From the NCBI RefSeq assembly GCF_011008935.1, contig NZ_JAAIVJ010000001.1, positions 558,001 to 622,000 of the forward strand: a stretch of DNA of 64,000 bases. Reading direction: 5' to 3'. Below, piece by piece: positions 29,072-33,523 of this stretch. The notes below the pieces were generated by a model. It made no database searches. It saw only the letters and a list, made by a program, of their open reading frames with translations, and had not been told where the DNA came from. Origin of the DNA: Tabrizicola oligotrophica (GTDB taxonomy: Bacteria; Pseudomonadota; Alphaproteobacteria; Rhodobacterales; Rhodobacteraceae). Every line of letters begins with the position of its first letter. Position 1 is the stretch's first letter. The position numbers and the translations under genes were made by a program.

Positions 29072-31322
<2,251 letters not shown>

Positions 31323-31341
31323 GGCGCTGACGCGGCGTCAA

Positions 31342-31376
31342 GCGCGCCCGGCTCTTGACGCCGGGCGCGCATCTTG
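31342..31376 (+). terminator. Terminator of eno
   Basis: GCGCGCCCGGC (31342-31352), 7-nt loop, GCCGGGCGCGC (31360-31370), followed by ATCTTG. An alternative stem GGCGTCAAG/CTTGACGCC (31334-31362) overlaps it. The T-tract is weak. Confidence 0.65.
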
Positions 31377-31413
31377 TAATGGTATTCCCGTCCAGGTTGA
31401 ATTTTCGGGGTCT

Positions 31414-32445
31414 ATGGTCGTGACGGTTTTTATTTATGGCGGTTCCAACTCGCTTCTTAAAACAGGCTGGACTGCGGGATTACAGGAAGATTTTCCGCCC
31501 CACTCCGTAGTCAATCACTCCATCGGGGCGACTACTTCGGTTACAGCAATCTACCAGATGCTTACCAATGCCAAGATCAGGCACGAACCTGGTGATGTGG
31601 TGGTCTGGGAATATGCCCTGAATGAGGCCAACCATATTACCAAAGGGTTAGACCCTGAAATAGCGTTGGGAAATACTGAAAGATTCATCCGGGAATGTGC
31701 GCGGCGTGAATTGAAACTTGCCGCCGCGGTGTTCACACCGCTGGACCAAGAAATGGCAGAAGAACGCATGCCGTACTATTCGATGTTGCATGCGCTGTTT
31801 CAACACTATGGTATTGAAATATTTGACGTATCACAGACTTGGCGCTTGCAGAATGACGTCCCGCGAGTTCCCCGGAGACTCTATCGCAACAAGGCACATT
31901 ATGCCGATGATCCGGAAATTCGCAACTTCATCATTGCTGGCGTGAAGACGGCACTTGGCAAGGCTCAAAGGCCAATGAATGTTTCACCCTTGCGGTGTGG
32001 CCCGGGGGAACTTCATGTCGAGCTTGCCAAGACTGGCGAGCGTTTCGAGAATTCCCGCATTTCGGCGCTTGTTGCGCCTATCAATTATCGAATGGAGTTT
32101 TCGCGCAAGGGCGCTGTGGTGGGGCTTGCCGCCTTGGTTCACCCCAATTCGCGCAGCGGACTTCATGTGCGGCTTGATCGACGGAATCGCGTCGAAAGCA
32201 TGGCCAATTTTTCGACGGCGGGCGCGAAATCCATGGGAAAGCCGATCATGAAAGTATATTCGGCCGAGGCTGCAAAAAACGTCACATGGGATGTAATACC
32301 CGGAGACGTCTTGGATATCGGCCCACTGAATTCTGCTGGTCTGCTATATTCCGAAACCTCATCGCGGGGTGAGCTCAAGCGGCTGGATGAAGTACAGCCC
32401 GCGTCTTTTATCGGCGTGGTGATGGAACTGTCTGAGACAGACTGA
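31414..32445 (+). CDS. SGNH/GDSL-like hydrolase, AT-richer orphan
   Basis: A 343-residue protein whose first half resembles an SGNH hydrolase: FIYGGSNSLLKTGW gives the block-I serine, VVWEYALNEAN the block-III-like Asn, and RNKAHYADD may hold the C-terminal His/Asp. The second half (from about residue 190) is a beta-rich region without a recognised family. Base composition and codon choice are clearly less GC-rich than both neighbours (many A/T third positions), pointing to transfer from another source. In other bacteria, similar proteins sit with surface-polysaccharide genes; none are near here. Function unproven. Confidence 0.6.
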   Translation: MVVTVFIYGGSNSLLKTGWTAGLQEDFPPHSVVNHSIGATTSVTAIYQMLTNAKIRHEPGDVVVWEYALNEANHITKGLDPEIALGNTERFIRECARRELKLAAAVFTPLDQEMAEERMPYYSMLHALFQHYGIEIFDVSQTWRLQNDVPRVPRRLYRNKAHYADDPEIRNFIIAGVKTALGKAQRPMNVSPLRCGPGELHVELAKTGERFENSRISALVAPINYRMEFSRKGAVVGLAALVHPNSRSGLHVRLDRRNRVESMANFSTAGAKSMGKPIMKVYSAEAAKNVTWDVIPGDVLDIGPLNSAGLLYSETSSRGELKRLDEVQPASFIGVVMELSETD

Positions 32446-32455
32446 CAACCGGCCG

Positions 32456-33523
32456 TCAGACCGGCCGCAGCAGCCGGTCCGGCCGGAAGGGCGCAGCCTC
32501 GGGCAAGATCCCCTGCCCGGTCATTTCGGCCGCCAGCGCCTCGGCTGCGATGGCCGCCAGCGTCACGCCGGAATGCATCACCGAAAGCCAGAGCCCCGGC
32601 ACGCCCGCCACCGCGCCGATGATCGGCAGCCCGTCGCCCGGCACCGGCCGGTCGGCCTGCATCACCGTTTCGACCCGCAGGTCCTTCAGGCCCAAGAGCG
32701 CCGAAATGCGCGCCAGCGCCGCGACCGCCTGACCGAGCGGGTCGGAAAGATCGTCGCCCGCGTCCGACTGATGGAACGCCGCCGCCGGGGCCAGAAGCCG
32801 GCCGTCATCCTCTTGCCGAAGTTCCTGTTCGGGGCCGGCAAGGATATGGGCCAGCCGCAGGCCGACCGGCGCGCTGCGCAGCAGCAGGCCGGGCCGGTGC
32901 AGCATCGGCAGCGCCAGCCCGAGCGGGGCCAGCAGGTCGGGCGCGCCAAGCCCCGCCGCGATCACCACCTGATCGGCGGCCAGCGGGCCGTGGGGCGTTT
33001 CGACGCCGGTGACGCGACCCTCCGCAACCCGCAGTTGGCCGCGCACCCCGCTCAGCACCCGCGCGCCCGAGGCGGCGAGCAGCGCCCGGCTCAGCTCCGC
33101 GGCATCGACCCAGCCTTCCGTCGGAAAGAACAGCGCCTCCTCCGGCGGGGCGGTCAGGGCCGGTTCGCGCCGGGCAATCCCGGCCCGGCCGAGCCGCTCC
33201 AGCGGATAGCCCGCCGCCTCGAGACGCGCGGCGGTGGCGGCAAGCGCCTCGCCCGCCTCCTCCCACCACAGGCAGCCACTGGCCCGGTGCAGCCCCGGCA
33301 GCGCCCGCGCCAGCCGCTCATGCGCGGCCATCCCGGCAAGGCGCAGCGCGAAATGCGCCTCCGACAGCGAGAAGCTGGCGTTGATCCAGCCGAAACTGCG
33401 CCCCGAGGCCATGGCGGCGGGCAGCCCGGCCTCGACCACGGTGACGTCGCGGCCACGGCGGGTCAGCTCAAAGGCCAGCGCGGCGCCGATCAGCCCGGCG
33501 CCGATGATGGTGATCTTTTCCAT
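32456..33523 (-). CDS. FAD-dependent amino-acid oxidase/dehydrogenase (DadA/ThiO-like)
   Basis: A 355-residue DAO-family flavoprotein. It begins with the Rossmann motif [18 protein letters not shown] followed by [15 protein letters not shown]. The C-terminal FAD region shows [14 protein letters not shown] and [13 protein letters not shown]. Such enzymes oxidise D-amino acids, glycine or N-methyl amino acids. The ATG at 33523 opens the FAD motif directly; the frame above it lacks homology and the ribosome site is weak. Divergent from rluE with 55 bp between them. The substrate cannot be assigned. Confidence 0.85.

Follow-up and report, generated by a model that had tools for sequence, protein, structure and literature searches.

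Introduction

CEX (PDB 6hfz, 6hh9), an esterase that acts on acetylated mannans and that we take to be CE17 of Roseburia intestinalis, has two domains, an SGNH domain and behind it a beta domain. The SGNH fold is also used on polysaccharide acetyl groups by the O-acetyltransferases AlgX and OatA, proteins of a type that is exported or tethered to the membrane. Some known SGNH enzymes lack the Asp residue of the catalytic triad. Phages carry SGNH proteins as well: in Klebsiella prophages, SGNH receptor-binding proteins have esterase activity, and further SGNH proteins are found beside these receptor-binding proteins (PMC13123978, passages available). Prophages can furthermore carry capsule-modifying enzymes, as exemplified in E. 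coli K1 by NeuO, a capsule O-acetyltransferase encoded on a prophage (PMC3046976), and for capsule sugars acetylation can be a cytoplasmic step (PMC9558356, passages available).

The gene studied here resides in a stretch of 64,000 nucleotides from Tabrizicola oligotrophica, which is referred to as the window throughout. Like CEX, its product is predicted to consist of an SGNH domain and a subsequent beta domain and matches the CEX structure over the whole chain, but it is only 11% identical, carries Asn where the triad Asp would be expected and belongs to a family encountered in the context of glycan synthesis, in phages or in neither. The family resembles the SGNH esterases known from receptor-binding proteins of prophages (Klebsiella prophages; G7C gp63.1) in having an SGNH domain, in its carriage by phages close to tail genes and in a presumed surface-glycan target (PMC13123978, passages available), whereas its members are free-standing proteins of ~335 aa that do not form part of a tail fibre, and most copies found lie outside recognized phages. 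NeuO is comparable as a capsule-modifying enzyme on a prophage, but is a left-handed beta-helix enzyme and not an SGNH protein. AlgX and OatA are similar in employing an SGNH fold on polysaccharide acetyl groups and differ in that neither a signal peptide nor a membrane segment is apparent in the window protein. Among the papers listed by literature searches on this family and on SGNH proteins in capsules of Rhodobacter, Paracoccus and Rhodobacterales, none dealt with the family. What was formerly an unknown AT-rich gene becomes a testable member of an unmodelled family that is tied to surface-glycan synthesis and to temperate phages in Rhodobacterales.

An intact gene between enolase and a DAO oxidoreductase

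The open reading frame at 31414-32445 starts with ATG and runs as a single intact frame over 343 codons (Table 1). It is a real gene and beyond chance, because two relatives align with its product over nearly the full length at ~35% identity. Its location between enolase and an FAD oxidoreductase agrees with the original prediction. The distance to the enolase stop codon (31320-31322) amounts to 91 bp, and 10 bp separate the end of the gene from the stop end (32456) of the converging oxidoreductase gene.

Table 1. Position of the gene, its neighbours and its predicted protein features in the window
Feature	Position	Strand	Basis
Enolase, upstream neighbour	30045..31322	+	ORF call; matched in 40/41 genomes
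Perfect 11-bp hairpin, G+C-rich, in the spacer between enolase and window gene; possible enolase terminator	31342..31370	+	Repeat search; fold
Window-gene CDS, two-domain SGNH-like protein, 343 aa, stop included	31414..32445	+	ORF call; full-length relatives
Predicted SGNH-fold domain, residues 1-182	31414..31959	+	AlphaFold2; acetyl xylan esterase, TesA and OatA matches over ~1-185
S11 codon, presumed nucleophile (GGSNS, block I)	31444..31446	+	S in 48/52 rows
N70 codon, presumed oxyanion-hole Asn (block III)	31621..31623	+	N in 49/52 rows
N159 codon, position of triad Asp (block V)	31888..31890	+	D in 39/52 rows, N in 5/52 including window gene
H162 codon, presumed catalytic His (block V)	31897..31899	+	H in 49/52 rows
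Predicted all-beta C-terminal domain, residues 199-339, tentatively carbohydrate-binding-module-like	32008..32430	+	AlphaFold2 models; structure searches
FAD-dependent (DAO) oxidoreductase, converging downstream neighbour, start codon uncertain	32456..33523	-	PF01266, E 1.4e-43

The deviating base composition noticed originally was confirmed. The gene has a GC content of 0.523 and a GC3 of 0.557, and both of its halves are AT-rich (GC3 of 0.53 and 0.58). For the 46 other ORFs of at least 150 aa that a crude caller found in the window, mean values of 0.670 for GC and 0.836 for GC3 (sd 0.042, minimum 0.640) were obtained, such that the gene looks foreign in its surroundings. The lowest GC3 comes from an ORF antisense to the enolase gene, which is probably a calling artefact.

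Likewise in line with the original prediction, a repeat search of the flanks revealed no insertion sequence, clear flanking repeat or att-like repeat, and no phage gene, integrase or mobility gene adjoins the window gene. The short repeats present (9-21 nt) are mostly imperfect or internal, and the 91-bp spacer matches in full length only itself in the genome. Insertion by a known element was rejected given that flanking repeats or a repeated spacer were not found, and a prophage relic at the site was dismissed as there is no phage gene nearby. The region 31318-31400, which includes the spacer hairpin, has a fold z-score of -3.4; the hairpin was not scored as a terminator because it lacks a T-run, and no terminator-like site was found at the start of the window gene.

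Predicted fold and active site

Structure prediction with AlphaFold2 (8 sequences) resulted in a model with a pLDDT of 83.9 and a pTM of 0.87, in which an alpha/beta domain is followed by an all-beta domain (Table 1). Acetyl xylan esterase, GDSL proteins and TesA were among the matches when the model was compared with the PDB by Foldseek. In VIA-align the top match was 6hfz_B (Z 21.2, rmsd 3.9, 297 residues aligned, model residues 1-342), and the next rows covered the SGNH half only, with acetyl xylan esterase at Z 18.2, TesA at 17.5 and OatA at 16.1 and with many SGNH proteins that aligned over residues 1-185 at Z 14-18. A fold search against a viral library ranked esterases of phages and of tail fibres high. 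By its predicted three-layer alpha/beta fold the window protein falls into the SGNH/GDSL hydrolase superfamily, and the model has its SGNH and C-terminal beta domains arranged as in 6hfz.

The second half, originally thought to lack a recognized family, is thus predicted to form an all-beta domain that takes part in the whole-chain match to 6hfz; for this half alone matches are weak. When folded separately (pLDDT 70.7), its best match was a GH26-CBM35 mannanase (Z 8.6, rmsd 3.1 over 107 residues), tied with unrelated beta domains, and Foldseek returned no match at E 0.001. A firm assignment to CBM35 was dropped for this reason and is now only tentative.

Family models recover the protein poorly. 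Pfam Lipase_GDSL_2 (PF13472) matched the window protein at E 5.5e-4 with 20.9 bits, below the cut-off of 32.9, and five of 17 relatives at E ≤0.05, the best one at 3.2e-10. The weak match to Pfam ALGX (E 0.004) is also below the cut-off. NCBIfam and PHROGs returned nothing usable for the window protein and eight relatives. Sequence searches of the PDB gave no match with the window protein, and no SGNH protein was among the 60 rows listed for the profile, all of which were chance matches, to a protein kinase. The window protein belongs to an unnamed, unmodelled family, probably of SGNH glycan esterases or acyltransferases.

The SGNH-like character of the first half had been proposed on the basis of short motifs, and these are present: GGSNS (residues 9-13), YALNEAN (67-73) and NKAHYADD. 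Conservation was assessed in 52 aligned rows from which three duplicates had been removed (Table 1). The block I Ser, block III Asn and block V His of the SGNH superfamily are all found in the window protein, and the block V triad Asp is missing, its position being occupied by N159. By analogy with SGNH enzymes, S11, N70 and H162 are presumed to fill the corresponding roles and N159 to stand where the triad Asp would be. Assignment to the superfamily is unharmed by this exchange since it rests on the fold and the other blocks, but full activity of the window copy is less sure.

N159 would fit a decaying or inactive remnant kept by chance, and so would the unlinked position without partner genes and the result of a consensus scan, which found no promoter-like site on the + strand upstream of the gene. 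We nevertheless consider a remnant decidedly unlikely. The frame is intact, none of S11, N70 and H162 has been lost, Asn also occurs at position 159 in four other rows, and a consensus scan does not cover all promoters.

Distribution of the family

The gene is not an orphan, as had been assumed, but belongs to a patchily distributed family. With the window protein as query, five loci were found in genome contigs, two plasmid records and one phage carried relatives, and one locus was recovered from viral contigs. When searched with a phage copy, the same viral contigs yielded two loci, of which one lies on the contig already matched by the window protein; L119 as query gave one locus and L127 none. 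Among four whole genomes of its own genus the window genome itself is the only carrier. A single-protein search detected relatives in 17 of 394 genomes of the taxonomic family, and profile searches did so in 31 of 125 genomes of the genus Paracoccus, in one of 18 genomes of the genus of Sinirhodobacter hankyongi (Paenirhodobacter in the taxonomy table used) and in 14 of 292 genomes of an order-wide sample, all 14 from the same taxonomic family. Genes of the relatives were called with a crude script of our own.

Two family copies are interrupted by insertion sequences, with both halves still recognizable: one by an IS21-type element (L030:8173-11719, genome G388) and one by IS256 on the Cereibacter plasmid pORIO1 (L027:6415-8852).

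Glycan-synthesis neighbours and proposed function

At eight loci, seven in genomes of the genus Paracoccus and one on a Cereibacter plasmid, genes for a ~1250-aa and then a ~355-aa protein come after the SGNH gene. Pfam, applied to two of the eight large proteins (L129, L124), identified Capsule_synth and GT2 domains, and Capsule_synth was found in the two small proteins that were searched (L129, L131). The eight cassette copies form one group in the tree. Genes for a glycosyltransferase and a mannose-1-phosphate guanylyltransferase are located near three further copies (L026, L036, L037), with the guanylyltransferase identified by Pfam and GMD also present at L037. Genes for GT4, GT2 and an epimerase occur at L120, and close copies of these at L123. 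L126, a member of the seven-row tree group that includes the window gene (SH-aLRT 99), adjoins a gene for a Glyphos_transf+GT4 protein.

An unnamed free-standing protein of ~310-400 aa is encoded at five loci (L120:5146-6339, L121:2298-3227, L123:6754-7839, L126:9988-10941, L136:10230-11270); Pfam gave no match for the three of these proteins that were searched. It resembles approximately residues 827-1057 of the ~1250-aa Capsule_synth/GT2 protein, a similarity that for L121 and L126 was in part established through L120 and L123. L121 and L126, which belong to the tree group of the window gene, thereby carry a protein that resembles part of the cassette glycosyltransferases.

At L026:7224-9002, L036:8972-10696 and L037:8828-10582 a sulfotransferase-like N-terminal part (below cut-off) is fused to the SGNH part, and GDP-mannose genes lie next to the fusion.

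In total, capsule or other glycan-synthesis genes adjoin ~16 of 52 copies, and about two thirds of the copies, that of the window included, have no glycan gene nearby. A Pfam tally of 92 of the 129 listed neighbours, taken from 24 loci outside the cassette, guanylyltransferase and phage groups (L120, L121, L123, L126 and L136 included; L043 and L137-L144 omitted as distant, and likewise the two rows of L030 that are transposases), comprised mixed housekeeping families with Glycos_transf_1 in four and GT2 in two neighbours, these being raw counts without a background rate. The window copy itself lies outside any capsule cluster. Its genome contains eight matches to PF05159 (Capsule_synth) in ~5 open frames, among them a group on contig 5 that we assume to be a KpsC/KpsS-like pair, and these genes render a capsule-type substrate plausible.

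On these grounds we infer, with chances that appear evenly balanced, that the protein is a soluble two-domain SGNH O-acyl esterase or acyltransferase acting in trans on a capsule-type polysaccharide of its host. The protein would probably be soluble and cytoplasmic, judged from the lack of a visible signal peptide. A Ser-His centre of S11 and H162, whose oxyanion hole would contain N70, is presumed to cleave off or transfer an O-acyl group, most likely acetyl, on a capsule-type or other surface polysaccharide, while the C-terminal beta-sandwich may hold the glycan. Kin of the gene are located in capsule-synthesis clusters, in prophages or singly across Rhodobacterales; the window gene is an unlinked single copy, whose presumed target in trans would be the host's own capsule-type polysaccharide. 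The main points that speak against this function are the Asn at position 159 and the unlinked position.

That the protein is a common TesA-like esterase or thioesterase of the cytoplasm, unconnected with surface glycans, is very improbable in comparison. TesA is among the best SGNH matches and many family copies do reside among housekeeping genes, but the TesA match extends over residues 3-184 only, whereas for the entire chain the best match is a glycan esterase with two domains, and glycan-synthesis neighbours recur.

Phage-borne relatives

In the Paracoccus phage Pthi1 a relative is encoded between a tail-region gene and the holin gene, and two IMG/VR prophages carry relatives at a similar place. 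At L119 the gene lies behind a tail-fibre gene. The Pthi1 copy is not discussed in the passages found of the Paracoccus virome paper (PMC6536676). These copies raise the question of whether the window gene is stranded cargo of a lost prophage, in which it would have served as a lysogenic-conversion gene or as a separate tail-associated capsule deacetylase. The very low GC3 of phage copies relative to their neighbours (L146 -0.34, L004 -0.27), the phage and tail-fibre esterases listed by the viral fold search and the activity of the Klebsiella prophage esterases (PMC13123978, passages available) would agree with such an origin. We still regard it as unlikely: the window copy is not part of a prophage and has no phage gene, integrase or att-like repeat beside it, it is separate from the three phage rows in the tree, and its sister also resides behind enolase, which a random prophage relic leaves unexplained.

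History of the site behind enolase

The original prediction inferred a recent acquisition. In its favour, the gene is absent from all three congeners studied (two of them 81% and 88% complete), and in the complete one (G001, 100%) the enolase and DAO ORFs are only 51 bp apart, leaving a near-empty junction. On the other hand, the closest full-length relative, found in another genus in S. hankyongi and 35% identical, also lies directly behind enolase, starting 13 bp after its stop codon. Orthologues at the same place across the taxonomic family had been named as evidence to the contrary; a family member directly behind enolase was seen at two of 48 enolase loci (30 from 40 genomes with an enolase match plus 18 further loci), namely in the window and in S. 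hankyongi, and this neither refutes nor confirms a recent arrival cleanly. In a quick tree with long branches (43 rows; 12 of 55 omitted, three as duplicates and nine as distant), the two copies are sisters with an SH-aLRT of 83. In our view, this points to a common history of the enolase site that is old enough for 35% identity, through either transfer together with flanks or old inheritance with losses. A site common to two genera poses a small puzzle as to how single genes reach the same place.

The low GC3 was part of the argument for a recent arrival and is undisputed for the window gene, which with an offset of -0.28 from its neighbours is one of the most extreme cases next to the two phage copies and the chromosomal copies L138 and L135. 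However, of 51 loci without duplicates, 41 have a gene GC3 below the neighbour mean (median offset -0.054; p of 1.2e-7 in a Wilcoxon test, a value that is too small because the rows are related), and GC3 is also low in copies that keep their site across species (L005, L118, L125). The copy of S. hankyongi has a host-like GC3 of 0.865. Since low GC3 is general in the family, including copies with a common site, it is a family property and not proof of recent transfer; dating by GC3 was rejected, and a recent arrival of the window gene is doubtful. Overall, the original interpretation is partly supported: the foreign-looking composition, the SGNH-like first half and the lack of an adjoining mobility gene stand, as does the absence from the three congeners, whereas the orphan status and a second half without any recognizable fold do not.

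If the arrival was not recent, an old ancestor may already have had the gene behind enolase and passed it on, with fast evolution and loss in most lines thereafter and with low GC as the codon use of the family. The common site and nearest position in the tree of the window and S. hankyongi copies, the constant sites of L005/L118/L125 and of L038/L039 across species and the low GC3 in most family loci are in accordance with this course of events. It would require many losses, given the absence from three of three congeners and from 17 of 18 genomes of the other genus; moreover, the S. hankyongi gene occupies a place where its congeners mostly have another gene (see below), and the sister support is under 95. 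Such inheritance is possible but rather doubtful. It concerns history and is compatible with the capsule enzyme proposed above.

A broader and still more doubtful picture is that of roaming capsule-editing genes in Rhodobacterales, in which one family with SGNH and beta domains would provide a capsule-synthesis step, a conversion gene of prophages and free single copies entering favoured sites, for example behind enolase, without visible mobility genes. If this were true, a single gene could change the capsule acylation pattern of a strain and hence its phage sensitivity.

The slot behind enolase is filled differently in related genomes. Other genomes of the genus of S. hankyongi (L160-L177) mostly carry a small gene there, presumably cupin-like, which was not found behind enolase in S. 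hankyongi, the genome with the SGNH gene. Among the congeners of the window genome, what we take to be an SDR-like gene follows enolase in G002 and, presumably, a MarC-like gene in G003, where the DAO gene resides on a different contig from enolase.
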